Origin: Cynocephalus volans
Lineage: Eukaryota > Chordata > Mammalia > Dermoptera > Cynocephalidae
Assembly: GCF_027409185.1 (NCBI RefSeq)
Contig: NC_084475.1
Coordinates: 15,024,130-15,088,129 of the forward strand
Reading direction: 5' to 3'
DNA: 64,000 bases
The notes beneath the pieces were generated by a model. It worked only from the letters and a program-made list of their open reading frames with translations, made no database searches and was not told the DNA's origin. This document shows positions 2,832 through 63,498 of the stretch, piece after piece. The position numbers were made by a program, and so were the translations under genes. The stretch's first letter is position 1, and each line of letters begins with the position of its first letter.

Positions 2832-3439
2832 GAGGGAGGTGGGTGCTTGTGAGGCCTCACCTTTGCAGGGAGCAAGCAAGGCCTGCCCCAGCTCTTCATG
2901 GGGGCTCCTTTGAGGCTGATGAACTGAAGTATGTGGCTCCTAAAGACCCAGCTCTGACTTTCTCCCGAGGCAGGGTCCCGGATTGGAGATGGGTTGGATC
3001 TTCCTGTCCCTTCCTCTCTGGATCCCAGCGACCAGCTCAATGCATTGATTTCTGCCCCTGGCTGGCACAGATAGACCCAACAGCTCCACCCCCTCTCTGG
3101 AGCCACAGAGAGAGCAAGAATTGGGTCTGGCACCTGCCTTATCCGGGTTGGCAGAGTCAGAGCTGTCCAGCCCAGCGGAAACCCGTCCCGGCTGCCCTGA
3201 CTTTCACGCCTGGCTCCCCTCGTCCAGATCCACCATCCCTTCCCACTGGCTGCCTGCCTGCCCTTCCTGTGGGCTGCACCACGTCCTGGCTCAACCCAGC
3301 AAGTCAGAGCCTCCATGTAACAGGGCAGCTGGGCCCCCGAGCAACACACTTCAGTAGGAATGCTGCTGATGTTTAGAGAACCCACTACTTCAGGAAACTC
3401 ATTAGGTAGGCACGCTTCTTACCTCCAGCCTCCTTGAGG

Positions 3440-5138: not shown

Positions 5139-5210
5139 TAAGATCAAGGTCAAGGGTTCGGATCCCCATACCGGCCAGCCACCAAAAAAATAAATAAATA
5201 AAAAGAAAAC
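5139..5210 (+). repeat. tRNA-Ile-like SINE, 3' part only
   Basis: The stretch holds the B-box/T-arm half of the lineage SINE ('aaggtcaagggttcggatcc', then 'ccggccagccacc') and an A-rich tail of AAAT units. The 5' half is missing. It sits next to an L1 3' end. Confidence 0.7.
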
Positions 5211-5640: not shown

Positions 5641-6123
5641 TGTACTCCGTGCACATGTATAATTACAATGTGTCCATTAACATAAATTAACTAATTAAAA
5701 AATAAATTAACTAACTAAAGTGTAGGGACAGGCAAATGAATTACCCACCTGGTGCTCATGCCCGGATACTTGGGCTGGACTGACTGTGGCTGAAGACTTT
5801 AGAGACCAAGCAGGTCAAGGTGCGCTGCTGTGTACCTGTAGCACCTCGTGCTGCACCTAGGCTGGCTCAGAGATACCTGCCCTGTTGGGCAGAACAGCAC
5901 AGGCTATCAGCCTGCCCTGGCCACTGACACAGGCTCCATGCAGGAAAGAATCGCCACCACCAGGAGAGGCCTCTCAGCTCTGTGCGGGCTATCTATGTGC
6001 CAACTAATGACAACCTCTGTCCCTGCCACCACCTTTGCCCATTTGGATGCTACCACTGTCCTGTCTGCAGCTATGATCCTACAGACTCCACGTCTTGAAT
6101 CCTGGGTCCCAACAGTACTGGCA

Positions 6124-6333
6124 ATGAGAATTATTATGTGCATTATGGGGTGCAAAGTATCCTTTCGTACTACACATCCCTGCAGGACATTATTGCCATC
6201 TTGGGTATGGAGACACTTTCTGAGCAAGACAAGAGCACTGTGTCCTGTGCATGGAAAAGACAGGGTTTGTGGTCTCAGCCATGCCAGGTGGCTGAGGTCT
6301 TCACAAGTCCTACAGGGAAGCCAGTACCTCTGA
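6124..6333 (+). other. GPR142: 69-codon upstream frame at the human-type GPR142 start
   Basis: ATG at 6124 sits where, from memory, the human GPR142 start lies in the same ATP5F1B-derived sequence. Here the frame begins MRIIMC, later reads [10 protein letters not shown] (human has a very similar SRWLRSPQV block), and stops at TGA 6331-6333, before the exon donor. It therefore cannot reach the receptor. If transcripts include it, it is an upstream ORF that overlaps the ATG at 6207 in another frame and could lower its translation. Confidence 0.5.
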
Positions 6334-6369
6334 AGGAGACCATCAAAGGATTCCAGCAGATTCTGGCAG
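6207..6369 (+). CDS. GPR142: GPR142 coding exon 1 (ATP5F1B-derived)
   Basis: ATG at 6207 is the first in-frame start after the TGA at 6096-6098 and has a strong context (G at -3, G at +4). The residues run [10 protein letters not shown] to GFQQILA, which is the C-terminal part of ATP synthase beta in its own frame. The exon ends CTGGCAG|GTGAAT, a usable donor native to the ATP synthase coding sequence. The last base is the first of a Gly codon completed by exon 2. Human GPR142 exon 1 (from memory) comes from the same retrocopy and ends at the same donor, but switches frame inside it. Confidence 0.6.
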
Positions 6370-9300
6370 GTGAATCTGACCACCTCCCAGAACAGGCCTT
6401 CTATAAGGTGGGACCTGTGGAGGATACTGTGACAAAAGCTGCTAAGCTGGCCAAAGGGCATGTGTGAGGGGTCGTTTTGGCAAATTTAGCACCACTAGTC
6501 CATCATCCTTCTCCTTGCCCCTAATCCCAAGGCTCTGTGCAGGCCACACAAGAGGCTTGGTTTAAGACGTCATGTTCTGTCTAAAGAGTATTTACGGTTT
6601 TCAATAAAATGTACATTCTTATCCTAAAAAAAAAAAAAATGTAGGGACAGGGTAGGTGCTCAGCAAATGTGGGCAGAACCCCTCCTTGCCCCTCACATAC
6701 GGCTGGTCTTTCCACTTCGACTGTAAGCTCCTCCTGGATGGGGCTGTGCCTCTTACCCCTAGTCTTGGGGCGCAGGGAAGTGGCGGTCTGGGGCTGGGGT
6801 CCTAACACTCTACTTGGGGCCCCGTCCTCAGCGGGTAGTCTCGAGCTGGTAGTGCCTGCTCTGGTCCCTCTCTGCCACCCAGGGGACCTGACCAAAGCCA
6901 GTGGACACTCAGCAGCTGGCAGGGTCAGAATGTGGCCACCGGGGGGCGGCAAGACCTAGGTTGTGAGTACCTGGGGTGGGCATGGGGGTCAGGGTGAGGT
7001 GGCTCCAGCTCCAGACACTGTATCTAACTTAGAGAAGCCCCCTACATTCCCTGCTGCATTTTCTGCTCCATTCCCAGAGGGTGGGACGTGGAAAGCCATT
7101 CCTGGCTGGGCCTCAGTTGTCCTCCAGAGGCTATCCACTGGGTGCCTGTGCCCCGGGTGCCCACTGTGGCCTGCCATGGTCACTCCTCTGCCAGGGGAGG
7201 GGAGCTGGCTGGGCACAGATTCTGGCCTCTTCAGAGTGCTCAACAGCACCAGCTGATGCCAAGGACTGATATTCTTGAGGGATGGTTTGTTTCCCCAGGG
7301 CCAGGAAAACAACAGCTTGTGGGGGCCACCAGGGCTTGGTGTCCCAGGGCTGGCTGCTGCAGCCTGGTCACGGTTCTCCCCCATGGTTGCCACCGCCATG
7401 CACATGGCCTCCTGCCACCCTTCCCAGCCAGCAGCCCCCTAGCAGTAGCCTCGACCGCTTCCTACCCCCTGCAGCCTCTGCAGGACTGACCCCTTCAAAT
7501 CTGTCCCTTAGGCTTTTCTCAGGATCTGAGCCCTGCAGAACTGCCGTTCTCTCCTCCCTGCCAGCAAATGCCTTTCGGAGTGTCGCTGCCCATAGATAGT
7601 ATCACCTCCCCAAATCCTTCTGCCTTTCCCCAAAGTCCTCACCCCCAGGATGTGATCACCCCCACTGAGCCTAGGCCAGCTTCCAGGGTGCCCAGGAGCA
7701 GGAGACAGTCCACCCGGAGCCCAGCCTGAGCCCTGATCCTGCCATCCTGACTCTTTCCCTCTCTTCCGCATCCCCAAGGCACAGACATACCAGTTAACCC
7801 AACCCCACTCGGCCTTTCTTGAAGCCTTTCCCCCAGCCTGACCCCCTTCCCTGCCTGTGCACCCTAGGGGACCCTGGTCTGCTCCAGGCAGCATCTACTA
7901 GAGGCTCGTTCTCCTGTGTCTCCGCCCACCCTTTCCTTCCTCCTCCTGCGTCCTCCTCACCACCCCGCTCTCTGCACTAACAGGCTCAGTGCCGCTGGAG
8001 GAATCGTGGGGCAAACAACCACTTGGAGAGCCGGGGGTGGGCGGTGCAGCTGGTGATGCTGGGAGGGAGCTGCGGGGACCCCAAGGAAAAGGCACAGGTG
8101 ACCCAGGACTCGGGACCCAGGAGCATGGGGCTTGAAGGACAAGAGACAGGTAAAGTATCTTGAAACGGGGTGTGTGTACAGCAGGGCAAGGTAGAAGGGC
8201 AGGAAGGAACAAGAGTCAGTAAGGGCCCCAGAGTCTGGGGGTGGGGAGGGTGACGCTGATAATGAATGGGCAGTGAGATGGGAAACTAGGCTTAGCGGGG
8301 GGCTCCTAGCAGGAAATCAAAAGCTGGACGTTTTAACCTAAGGAGACTTCAAGTGTGGTTTGAGGGGAGCAGGGGCCGGAGCATATGGATGGATGGTCCT
8401 CATCCCAGACCAGCCACAAGCCAACTGTGCCCCTTACCCCTGTGGACTCAGTTTCCCCATCTGAAAACCAAGGCCATTGCATCTTCAGTGCACCTATGAA
8501 GAGGGTGCTCTTCAGCTTAGAAAAGAGGGGGACCTAGTAACAGCTTCTCCGTAGAGGGAGCGGTAGTTAAGGACAGCCCTGCTGCTGCTGTGAATCTGTG
8601 GCTGGAATCACCCAGGACGCTTATTACAAACACAGCTGATCCCACAAGGCAGGGTGACCAAAAACACCCACGGCTGCTCAAGCCCCCCCAGACCCTCTGG
8701 CTCTGCCTGCCTGGAGCGAGGCCCAAGAACCTGTATTCCCACCAGTGCCCCCGGTGATCCTGAATCGCAGCCTGTTTCGGAGGCTCTGCCACTACCAGTG
8801 AAGCCCCGCAGGGACAATGCAGGGAGCAGTGGCCTCTACAGCAGCAGTGACACGCCACCGAGGACCTCTTCCCATCAGCGGGGGAGCCAGGCCACGTGGG
8901 TGGGCTGCGGTGGGGGTGGACTCGGCAAGAAGTTTTGTGACAATAGAGATTGCCGCTCGGCTGGGTCTGACCAGGGGGTCTGCACAGAGCAGGGGTGACA
9001 AGAAAGACCTCAGGATCAGGGCAGGGCTGCTGCTGAGCCAGGTCGGAAGAGACTGAACCCTCTAACCCTGCCTGCCCTCCCGTCCTTTCTAGCCAGCCAG
9101 CTACCAGTGACCCTGCTGCCCACACCCAACGGCAGTGGGCCCAGCCAGGAGTTGGAAGGCCACTTGTCCCCATGTGTGGCTGGTGTCATCCCTGTCATCT
9201 ATTACAGTGTCCTACTGGGCCTGGGGCTGCCTGGTGAGTGGGGAGCTGGGGTCTGCAGGTTTGGGCCTGGCCAGAAATTGGGGTCCTCCTTCAGCAGATG

Positions 9301-10999
9301 CAAATCCTCTGTGCTGACCTCTGAAACCCAGGATCATCGACCCCAGGCCTCCCGTTGCCTTTGTGGGGATGTTCTGGGTCACTGGAGAGCAAAGGTAGAA
9401 GGGAGTAAAAGAGAGGCTAGGATTTGGGGTGCCCAAAGCTAAACCCAAGGTTCCACCCAGAGCAGGCAGTCCCCTTCCACCCAGCATTGGGCACTTTCCT
9501 AGGAGGACTAAATTCATGTAGGACCATGCTCAGCCCAGTCCTCCCTGTACCATCCACTGCCTTCAGACAGCAGAGCATAGGGCAGGGGTGGGTGCACGTA
9601 CAGAAGAAAGGATAGGGCGGTCTCAGCCTTTGGGATTTCCTGAAGTCCAGTAAATAAACCTATCCCTGTGTCCAGGGAAGCCTGTGCCCCAGAGGACACA
9701 GAATAACTAAAAAGGACCTAGAGGGCATTTCCACTGGACAGGTGGCTTCTGAGTACACCCTGCCACATGAGCTTCCCTGTGTGTAATGCGTGAAGTCAGT
9801 GGCCTGCAGTGTGCGGATAGACAGGGCAGGGCTGGCCTGATTAGCCTTCTTGGCAACGTGGGTTTTTAGAAGGATCTGGATGGCTGCCCAGTTAGCTCAG
9901 GTGGTTAGAGCGTGGTGCTGATAACACTAAGGTCCAGGTTAACATCCCTGTACTGGCCAGCCGCCAAAAAAAAAAAAAAAAAGATTTGAAAAGAGAAAGA
10001 ACAGGAGCCAGCACAGCCTCCAGCACAAGCCAGTGGGGAGGGATGTGATAACACTGTAGAAAGGAAAGTCTGAACAGCACTTCTGATGCCTCTGATCTCT
10101 CCCCTCCATGACCTCGGTTGCCATCAGTCAACCTCCTGACCGCAGTGGCCCTGGCCCGCCTTGCCACCAAGAACAGGAAGCCCTCCTACTGCTACCTTCT
10201 GGCGCTCACAGCCTCGGATATTGTCACCCAGGTGGTCATCGTGTTCGTGGGCTTCCTCCTGCAGGGGGCTGCGATGGCCCGCCGGGTGCCCCAGGCCATG
10301 GTGCGCACGGCTAACATCCTGGAGTTTGCAGCCAACCATGCCTCCATCTGGATCGCTGTCCTGCTCACCATCGACCGCTACAGTGCCCTGTGCCACCCCC
10401 TACACCATCGGGCCACCTCGTCCCAAGGCAGGACCTGCCGGGCCATTGCCGCCGTCCTCAGTGCTGCCCTGCTAACAGGCATCCCCTTCTACTGGTGGCT
10501 GGATATGTGGAGGGGCGCCGACCCCCCCAGCACTTTGGATGAAGTCCTCATGTGGGCCCACTGCCTCATCGTCTATTTCATCCCTTGTGGTGTTTTCCTG
10601 GTCACCAACTCAGCCATCGTCCTCCGGCTACAGAAGAGGGGCCAGAGGGGGCTGCGGCCCTGGGTGGGCAAGAGCACAGCCATCCTCCTGAGTGTCACCA
10701 TGCTCTTCGCCCTCCTTTGGGCACCCCGGATCTTTGTCATGCTCTACCACCTGTACGTGGCTCCTGTCCACCGGGACTGGAGGGTCCACCTGGCCTTGGA
10801 TGTGGCCAACATGGTGGCCATGCTCAACACAGCAGTCAACTTTGGTCTCTATTGCTTCGTAAGCAAGACTTTCAGGGCCACTGTCCGACAGGTTATCCAC
10901 GATGCCCACCTGCCCTGCACCCAGAGGTTACGGACAAAGGGCATGGTGGTGGAGCCTGTGCTGAAGCCTCCAAGACTCCCCAAAGGGGTGGAATTGTAG
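6207..10999 (+). CDS. GPR142: GPR142, orphan class A G protein-coupled receptor (4 coding exons)
   Basis: GPR142 is a Gq-coupled plasma-membrane receptor reported to respond to aromatic amino acids such as L-tryptophan and to be enriched in pancreatic islets and gut. My model joins 6207-6369, 7984-8097, 9093-9233 and 10128-10999: 1290 bases, 429 residues plus TAG. All three introns are GT-AG and the frame closes. The extracellular N-terminus is about 120 residues and has no signal peptide. TM1 spans about 121-146, with Asn141 at the 1.50 position. Asp170 is the TM2 Asp (LALTASD), DRY is at 222-224, TM6 has a WAP motif, and TM7 has NFGLY in place of NPxxY. Human GPR142 is 462 residues; exons 3 and 4 match it closely. 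The N-terminus is the uncertain part: exon 1 is read in the ATP synthase frame, and a second start at 8125 is also possible. A poly-A signal follows at 11071. Confidence 0.72.
6370..7983 (+). other. GPR142: GPR142 intron 1
   Basis: It begins GTGAAT and ends in a long pyrimidine tract (about 7929-7975) and AACAG. It contains the rest of the ATP5F1B retrocopy, with its 3'UTR and poly-A tail, and a possible CTCF-type motif at 6936-6951. No other coding exon is seen. Confidence 0.65.
6936..6951 (+). promoter_or_regulatory. possible CTCF-type motif
   Basis: CCACCGGGGGGCGGCA differs by a few bases from the CTCF core CCACCAGGGGGCGCTA. It lies in GPR142 intron 1. Binding cannot be judged from sequence alone. 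Confidence 0.3.
7984..8097 (+). CDS. GPR142: GPR142 coding exon 2
   Basis: The acceptor is a strong pyrimidine tract plus CTAACAG. The donor is weak: CACAG|GTGACC. The reading frame linked to the receptor gives [10 protein letters not shown], then [12 protein letters not shown]; the second block matches the human extracellular segment (TAGDADRELRGP, from memory). In the other frame the first part reads AQC...[11 protein letters not shown], matching human AQC...[11 protein letters not shown]. So relative to human a one-base shift occurs near 8032-8041 in a run of Gs. The exon codes for a low-complexity extracellular linker. Confidence 0.65.
8125..8149 (+). CDS. GPR142: alternative GPR142 start in extended exon 2
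   Basis: ATG at 8125 has A at -3 and G at +4. It encodes MGLEGQET plus one base before a good donor at 8150 (GACAG|GTAAAG), then joins exon 3 at 9093 in the receptor frame (ALA-SER-GLN-LEU follows). This would give a 345-residue receptor without the ATP5F1B-derived part. Mouse Gpr142 is shorter than human (about 365 residues, from memory), so a downstream start is plausible. The 429-residue model needs the weaker donor at 8098 instead: read-through to 8149 in that frame meets a TGA. Confidence 0.4.
8600..8795 (-). repeat. MER5-type DNA-transposon relic
   Basis: Phrases such as 'ctggaatcacccaggacgct' and the 'ctgattcaggatcacc'-like end (reverse strand) recall MER5A/B of the hAT-Charlie group. 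The copy is decayed, with approximate edges. Confidence 0.45.
9093..9233 (+). CDS. GPR142: GPR142 coding exon 3 (N-terminus end and TM1)
   Basis: The branch-point-like TCTAACC and pyrimidine tract lead to TTCTAG at 9092; the donor is CTG|GTGAGT at 9234. It codes for [15 protein letters not shown], then [12 protein letters not shown] and SVLLGLGLP, which match human GPR142 nearly residue for residue from the PCVAGVIP block on. One likely N-glycosylation sequon (Asn-Gly-Ser) is present. Both ends are phase 1. Confidence 0.92.
9234..10127 (+). other. GPR142: GPR142 intron 3
   Basis: It runs from GTGAGT to TTGCCATCAG. It carries one tRNA-Ile-like SINE (9882-9982) and otherwise unique sequence. 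Confidence 0.85.
9882..9982 (+). repeat. tRNA-Ile-like SINE, monomer
   Basis: The A-box region (GTTAGCTCAGGTGGTTAGAG), the anticodon-like GTGCTGATAACAC and an altered B box are followed by an A18-type tail. It lies inside GPR142 intron 3 in the sense direction. It is not a tRNA gene: there is no intact acceptor stem. Confidence 0.9.
10128..10999 (+). CDS. GPR142: GPR142 terminal coding exon (TM2-TM7)
   Basis: The acceptor is GCCATCAG at 10127. The frame runs to TAG at 10997-10999. It starts inside TM1 ([15 protein letters not shown]) and contains YLLALTASD of TM2, [15 protein letters not shown] at the end of TM3, [11 protein letters not shown] of TM4/ECL2, [10 protein letters not shown] of TM5, [11 protein letters not shown] of TM6 and [12 protein letters not shown] of TM7. 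The cytoplasmic tail is about 40 residues and ends GVEL. The usual disulfide Cys at the top of TM3 (3.25) is Val. All of this matches human GPR142 as I remember it. No frameshift or stop is present. Confidence 0.96.
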
Positions 11000-33579: not shown

Positions 33580-33804
33580 TTTATTTATTTTATTTATTTA
33601 TTTATTTATTTAAAGATGACCGGTAAGGGGATCTTTTTTTTTTTTTTTTAAAAGATGACCGGTAAGGGGATCTTAACCCTTGACTTGGTGTTGTGAGCAC
33701 CACGCTCAGCCAGTGAGCGAACCGGCCATCCGTATATGGGATCCGAACCCGGGGCCTTGGTGTTCTCAGCACCGCACTCTCCTGAGTGAGCCACGGGCCG
33801 GCCC
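33580..33804 (-). repeat. dimeric tRNA-Ile-like SINE
   Basis: On the minus strand it reads GGGCCGGCCCGTGGCTCACT, two tRNA-like units, 'gatccccttaccggtcatct' and an A-rich tail with TAAA units. A 15-base target-site duplication (CTCGTTTGCTTTTTA) flanks it at 33565-33579 and 33805-33819. The tail junction 'agatgaccggtaaggggatc' is present twice, about 37 bases apart, an internal duplication. It lies inside an older repeat. Confidence 0.95.
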
Positions 33805-61290: not shown

Positions 61291-61468
61291 GGGCTGGTCC
61301 ATGGCTCACTTGGGAGAGTGTGGTGCTGATAACACCAAGGCCACGGGTTTGGATCCCTTTATAGCGATGGCCGGTTAGCTCACTTGGGAGAGCGTGGTGC
61401 TGACAACACCAAGTCAAGGGTTAAGATCCCCTTACCGGTCATCTTAAAAAAAAAAAAAAAAAAGAAAA
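61291..61468 (+). repeat. tRNA-Ile-like SINE, dimer
   Basis: Left unit GGGCTGGTCCATGGCTCACT, right unit 'ggccggttagctcacttggg', end 'gatccccttaccggtcatct' plus an A-rich tail. A 16-base target-site duplication (GAAAAATGACTTCTTA) lies at 61275-61290 and 61469-61484. Confidence 0.96.
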
Positions 61469-62943: not shown

Positions 62944-63044
62944 AGGCTGGCCAGTTAGCTCACTTGGAGAGAGCATGATGCTGATAACACCATGGTCAAG
63001 AGTTCAGATCCCTGTACCGGCAAAAGGAAAATAAAAAAAAAAAA
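62944..63044 (+). repeat. tRNA-Ile-like SINE, monomer
   Basis: AGGCTGGCCAGTTAGCTCAC, anticodon-like 'gatgctgataacaccatggt', B box 'gagttcagatccctgtaccg' and an A-rich tail. Confidence 0.92.
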
Positions 63045-63317: not shown

Positions 63318-63498
63318 AGGGCCGGCCCATGGCTCACTCGGTAGAGTGCGGTGCTGATAACACCAAGGCCACGGGTTCGGATCCTATATAGGGATGGCCG
63401 GTTTGCTCACTGGCTGAGCGTGGTGCTGACAACACCAAGCCAAGGGTTGAGATCCCCTTACCGGTCATCTTTTAAAAAACAAACAAACAAACAAACAA
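63318..63498 (+). repeat. tRNA-Ile-like SINE, dimer
   Basis: Left unit AGGGCCGGCCCATGGCTCAC, right unit 'ggccggtttgctcactggct', end 'gatccccttaccggtcatct' and a tail of CAAA units. A 13-base target-site duplication (AAAACGCAATGTG) lies at 63305-63317 and 63499-63511. It is inserted next to the MIR-like element. Confidence 0.96.

Follow-up and report, generated by a model that had tools for sequence, protein, structure and literature searches.

Gain of a coding exon from an ATP synthase retrocopy is already known for the amino-acid receptor gene GPR142 in humans. Table 2 of Baertsch et al. (2008) places "ATP5/GPR142" among the exon acquisitions (Type I, category 6), supported by 2 spliced mRNAs and 2 spliced ESTs; the paper gives a protein of 462 aa in human and rhesus and reports that the copy is frameshifted early in chimpanzee, orangutan and marmoset (PMC2584115). 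The table entry reads 'C-terminal portion', whereas Figure 1A-6 and the text on category 6 describe an N-terminal exon (PMC2584115). According to the methods section, the traces of orangutan and marmoset served to examine recent events, defined by presence in human and rhesus and absence from mouse and dog; by implication, unstated for GPR142 itself, the ATP5/GPR142 copy was not found in mouse and dog (PMC2584115). The words colugo, flying lemur, dermopter, lemur and tree shrew are absent from the main text of that paper (PMC2584115), and we found no report of a GPR142 retrocopy insertion in colugos in the open-licence literature searched.

Here we describe the GPR142 locus of the colugo Cynocephalus volans in a window of 64,000 nucleotides (NC_084475.1, positions 15,024,130 to 15,088,129 of the forward strand). 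A taste-receptor protein encoded on contig C20 of this genome has 100% identity with C. volans TAS2R10, and Galeopterus variegatus follows at 92%. A first-pass annotation, made from the letters of this window, had proposed that the first coding exon of GPR142 was born from an ATP5F1B retrocopy and had suggested that such an origin was undescribed, although it was in fact listed in Table 2 of Baertsch et al. (2008) (PMC2584115). The colugo locus is like their ATP5/GPR142 in parent family, host gene and kind of event, in which part of an ATP synthase retrocopy gives a new N-terminal exon, but the known reading frame is closed in colugo. What seems to be new is the presence of the insertion in colugos, together with the finding of the retro-derived N-terminus in four protein clusters only, all of them represented by Old World monkeys or apes.

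Results

An ATP5F1B retrocopy upstream of colugo GPR142

A 5'-truncated and intronless retrocopy of ATP5F1B, ending in an A-tail and flanked by 12-base duplications, lies just upstream of GPR142, as the first-pass annotation had described (Table 1). Within it, the frame at 6138-6464 matches ATP synthase beta chains of solved structures without gaps over 105 residues (best 6j5i_D, E 3.4e-40). The intron-bearing parent ATP5F1B of the colugo genome is on contig C20 (L009), and further copies were found on C10, C20 and C1. The alignment of 5733-6639 to ATP5F1B that the annotation had proposed was made against the readable exons of this parent, and the copy spans three exon joins without any intron. 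The two sequences differ at 102 of 456 sites (K2P 0.272) with five deletions, and the differences are about equal among the codon positions (36/151, 29/153 and 37/152).

Table 1. Features of the retrocopy and of GPR142, numbered from the first letter of the window
Feature	Position	Strand	Basis
5' target-site duplication, AAAG+TGTAGGGACAGG, 12-base core 5721-5732	5717..5732	+	exact 12-mer, 15/16 over 16 nt
ATP5F1B retrocopy including 3'UTR and A-tail	5733..6639	+	structure-chain matches, comparison with genomic parent
Residual ATP5F1B-frame ORF, 109 aa, extending past the putative donor	6138..6467	+	ORF list, structure-chain match
Putative coding exon 1 of the first-pass annotation, ATG 6207, donor CAG/GTGAAT after 6369	6207..6369	+	donor is that of the orangutan GPR142 exon
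TGA closing the frame of the ape/monkey retro-exon	6331..6333	+	sequence, frame comparison with orangutan
AATAAA polyadenylation signal of the retrocopy	6603..6608	+	sequence
A-tail, 14 A	6626..6639	+	sequence
3' target-site duplication, 12-base core 6640-6651	6636..6651	+	exact 12-mer, 15/16 over 16 nt
Homologous to an upstream exon of the goat and takin GPR142 models; region of the probable native first exon, 3' of the retrocopy	6890..6979	+	tblastn: goat P0012 E 2.8e-7; takin P0023 E 0.008 (part only)
GPR142 exon 2, native form, donor CAG/GTAAAG after 8149; short form of the first-pass annotation ends at 8097 (CAG/GTGACC)	7984..8149	+	splice sites, homology
Probable native GPR142 start codon, A at -3, G at +4; in-frame upstream ATG at 8056	8125..8127	+	comparison with placental N-termini
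GPR142 exon 3	9093..9233	+	gene model
GPR142 exon 4, most of the seven-helix domain and stop	10128..10999	+	gene model, 7tm_1

The 12-base core of the duplication occurs twice on the plus strand of the window, at the two edges of the copy, and never on the minus strand, and the match lengthens from 12 exact bases to 16 nt at 15/16 identity. Matching repeats placed so precisely at both edges are not due to chance. Target-site duplications of L1-mobilised retrocopies range from 7 to 20 bp, and the 12-16 nt found here fall inside this range. The insertion site, CT/AAAG, departs at two positions from the consensus TT/AAAA of the L1 endonuclease. The segment 5373-5716, whose A-rich tail borders the insertion site, resembles what we take to be the 3' end of an old L1, to which an inverted 5' part may be joined. 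The idea that the duplication belongs to this neighbouring LINE-like sequence was rejected, because the 12-mer was found nowhere else in the window. The copy is like other processed pseudogenes, that is, L1-mobilised mRNA retrocopies, in its lack of introns, A-tail, target-site duplication and 5' truncation, with no notable difference from them, and it is unusual only in its position adjoining an exon.

Other retroposed sequences were also seen in the colugo genome. One ATP5F1B copy (L011, C20:75076800-75079800) is intronless and identical to the parent over the 516 coding bases compared, which marks it as a very recent retrocopy by sequence, and a second retrocopy (L010, C10:48271000-48273500) differs from the parent at 59 of 514 sites and is younger than the window copy. 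The mitochondrial ND2 C-terminal family (PF06444) gave 34 matches on several contigs at positions of millions of bases, apparently many nuclear mitochondrial copies. ARAGORN called three tRNA-Val and one tRNA-Ile in the window (33654-33728, 61368-61443, 62950-63022 and 63395-63469). These calls, and repeats near 5150-5190 and 9890-9965, are presumably tRNA-derived SINEs of colugo. The literature searched, including passages of PMC9141288, gave nothing usable on colugo SINEs.

The GPR142 gene and its probable native start

The receptor encoded downstream is GPR142, judging from the 7tm_1 domain (E 3.9e-22) and from the top informatively named matches of a protein search. It has one locus in the colugo genome, the next match being 51% identical. 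GPR142 itself is absent among the best 60 of 95 solved-structure matches, the top one being a GPR139 chimera, and no colugo-named protein is among the best 120 of the 376 matches of the GPR142 search. In the protein tree, colugo GPR142 falls weakly within Euarchontoglires (85/91) and is contained in no starred group. Its terminal branch is 0.12 in length, compared with a median of 0.068.

Two models of the start are to be considered. The four exons of the first-pass annotation (6207-6369, 7984-8097, 9093-9233 and 10128-10999) were rebuilt with the same donor and acceptors, and they sum to 1290 nt with a single terminal stop, just as had been claimed, and encode 429 aa; at 6207, the ATG is flanked by G at -3 and +4. 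In the native model, the ATG at 8125 is intact in colugo, and the long form of exon 2 gives a receptor of 345 aa. Starting from the ATG at 8056 in the same frame gives 368 aa, and a comparable longer form is annotated in several mammals, for example hippopotamus and gibbon. Exon 2 of colugo switches frame midway: two of its stretches lie in different frames and are continuous in orangutan.

Many GPR142 proteins of placentals begin with M[GRT]LEGQETAGQ or a similar sequence, about 41 residues before the CVAG motif. In a tally of the first 90 of 120 listed matches (376 were found), a Met precedes CVAG by 31-43 residues in 48 proteins. By eye, 45 of them resemble M..EG..TAGQ, and the other three (P0019, P0022 and P0066) have the Met at that distance without this motif. 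The retro-derived N-terminus is found in 4 of the 90, and neither N-terminus in 38 (12 without the CVAG anchor, 26 with other or shorter N-termini). Among those with the native start are elephant, armadillo, anteater, tree shrew, tarsier, mouse lemur and marmoset. Its spread in the database is in part a matter of annotation, since many of the models there are computational predictions. One protein of 351 aa with the native N-terminus (P0011) derives from contigs of at most 1530 bases, and such short contigs may point to spliced RNA carrying the native N-terminus in some mammal. Passages of a paper on GPR142 in mouse say nothing about the N-terminus (PMC5995358). Compared with other placentals, colugo shares the receptor, the structure of exons 3-4 and the native N-terminal motif, but it lacks six residues in the WPEIPER region just before CVAG (window 9155-9175) and has the retrocopy upstream.

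With regard to exons further upstream, the takin GPR142 model (P0023) has an upstream exon that matches the window at 3143-3268 (E 1.3e-8). Together with the homologue of the bovid upstream exon at 6890-6979, this places predicted bovid exons on both sides of the retrocopy site.

The retro-derived exon of some Old World monkeys and apes

Residues 1-38 of orangutan GPR142 isoform 3 (P0002) match ATP synthase beta (E 1.7e-8 against that single segment), and alignment E-values led us to reject chance similarity. The same residues match the window copy in the native ATP synthase frame, residues 42-73 match it in the +1 frame and end exactly at 6369, and the following residues resume in exon 2 at 7981-7984. 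Thus, the donor and acceptor nucleotides of orangutan are those that the first-pass annotation had proposed. The annotation had also described for the human protein the order of ATP synthase followed by another frame, and this order is what we saw in orangutan. From these alignments, a coding exon of GPR142 was born from an ATP5F1B retrocopy in some Old World monkeys and apes. The open orangutan form is now in the database, in contrast to the frameshift reported for this species by Baertsch et al. (2008).

When residues 1-100 of P0002 were used as the query of a search that requires shared 5-residue words, the retro-derived N-terminus was found in 4 clusters of 58 candidates, represented by Pongo, Cercocebus (a model marked as low quality), Rhinopithecus and Piliocolobus. 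Since each cluster is named by its representative alone, additional species within the four are invisible. Two Nomascus matches (P0035 and P0072) and one of Pygathrix (P0088) have the native start instead, so use of the retro-exon is not uniform among apes and Old World monkeys. In the six pairs of these four Old World models, the retro-derived part is 54-74% identical compared with 95-98% for the receptor, a difference that is partly model error.

Frame and constraint in the colugo copy

The donor inside the retrocopy and an open frame leading into GPR142 over 1290 nt are both present in colugo. On the other hand, the colugo copy is not read like the known ape/monkey exon, because of the TGA at 6331 and the frame change in exon 2. 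This TGA overlaps CTG AAG (6330-6335), Leu-Lys codons whose residues are unchanged from ATP synthase, so that it is most simply ancestral and would have been lost later in the Old World lineage. The open frame of the first-pass model is the inherited frame of ATP5F1B itself, and not the one used by the ape/monkey exon. If the copy decayed neutrally to the measured divergence, 54 codons would have no stop with a probability of about 0.51 and 163 bp no indel with a probability of about 0.19. An open frame through exon 1 is therefore unsurprising, since it is ATP5F1B's own and its chance of having no stop is about one half.

Amino-acid-changing codons number 4 of 20 before the ATG, 15 of 54 in exon 1 (scored against the solved-structure protein, not the colugo parent), 9 of 31 past the donor and 51 of 148 upstream, where 2 of the 51 are stops. 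Compared with the upstream part, Fisher's p is 0.40 for exon 1, 0.68 past the donor and 0.22 for the combined 28/105. Clear purifying selection on the ATP synthase frame was thus rejected, changing codons being not significantly reduced in exon 1. Over 315 bp, the ATP5F1B-frame ORF is free of indels, whereas about three would be predicted from the upstream rate (P about 0.04); this gives a weak hint of constraint, in a stretch that also covers sequence beyond the putative exon.

Discussion

We compared changed residues with ATP synthase beta (6j5i_D) as the reference. Among the 11 changes of colugo at 38 positions, three are identical new residues in Rhinopithecus (9 K>T, 21 D>E and 29 L>S), and orangutan shares two of the 11. 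These shared residues fit one common insertion, in a comparison made without a null model. An insertion common to colugo and Old World primates would predate the colugo-primate split, about 80 million years ago. At parent codon positions 1+2, 65 of 304 sites differ, which a Jukes-Cantor correction by hand raises to about 0.25 substitutions per site, and at rates of 2.2-3e-9 per site per year the retrocopy would be about 84-115 million years old. We infer that the insertion is older than the split, and likewise the order and timing of the events that follow.

Our joint reading, to which we give a probability of about 0.85, consists of insertion before the split, neutral decay, exonisation in the Old World lineage and translation of colugo GPR142 from its native start. 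An ATP5F1B mRNA would have been reverse-transcribed and inserted just 5' of the native first exon of GPR142 before colugos and primates separated, and the copy would then have decayed as a processed pseudogene with no visible constraint. By chance, the codons for Ala-Gly-Glu in its coding sequence would have provided a usable donor, CAG/GTGAAT. Splicing from this donor to GPR142 exon 2 would then have arisen in the lineage of Old World monkeys and apes and turned the copy into an alternative first coding exon, part of it in the ATP synthase frame and part one base off. In colugo, the copy has most likely stayed a pseudogene or contributes, at most, untranslated RNA at the 5' end, and GPR142 would be translated from the placental start at 8125 (or from 8056 in the same frame). 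The anatomy of the retrocopy, the intact native start, the identical donor and acceptor in orangutan and the closed ape/monkey frame in colugo are direct observations, and from the sequence we infer that the retrocopy has no coding use in colugo.

The first-pass annotation read the locus differently, with the colugo retrocopy supplying the translated start of GPR142 through the ATG at 6207, a splice from 6369 to 7984 and the short exon 2 ending at 8097. This start is unproven and, in our judgement, unlikely. Its frame is open over 1290 nt, its donor is also used in orangutan and its ATG has G at both -3 and +4, and no indel was found over 315 bp (P about 0.04), the strongest point against a reading in which colugo uses the native start only. 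However, the native start is intact in colugo and widespread in placentals, the open frame is simply inherited from ATP5F1B, and amino-acid-changing codons are not significantly fewer (15/54 versus 51/148). Moreover, the colugo model, orangutan and the red deer models do not agree on the frame of the early part of exon 2, so that this part does not resemble conserved coding sequence. A start in the ATP5F1B retrocopy thus holds, by the P0002 alignment, for some Old World monkeys and apes, but probably not for colugo, with its intact native start, its TGA at 6331 and substitutions free of visible constraint. That colugo exonised the same retrocopy independently in the other frame, so that a C-terminal peptide of ATP synthase beta (METLSEQDK...FQQILAG) would form the extracellular N-terminus of GPR142, seems to us decidedly unlikely.

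A milder use of the copy would make it an alternative 5' untranslated exon that is spliced to the long exon 2, translation starting at 8056 or 8125; we consider this doubtful. Donor and acceptor are both there and the long exon 2 holds the native ATGs, but the bovid upstream-exon homologue at 6890-6979, between the retrocopy and exon 2, could itself be the first exon. Separate ATP5F1B insertions at one place in Old World primates and colugo are another alternative, and this mRNA is indeed readily retroposed, with three other copies in the colugo genome; the same position relative to exon 2, the same donor nucleotide and the shared changed residues make such a coincidence hardly credible. A single insertion before the split, with later exonisation in the Old World lineage, remains our preferred reading.

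The commonest N-terminus among the 90 inspected GPR142 matches starts about 40 residues before CVAG, and the long N-terminus of some Old World primate forms is suggested to be a young, loosely conserved addition. The locus is a clean case in which an unrelated gene's mRNA, once retrotransposed, gave rise to a coding exon, and apparently did so long after it had been inserted. The sharing of the insertion by colugo separates the raw material, that is, the insertion itself, from its later use as an exon.
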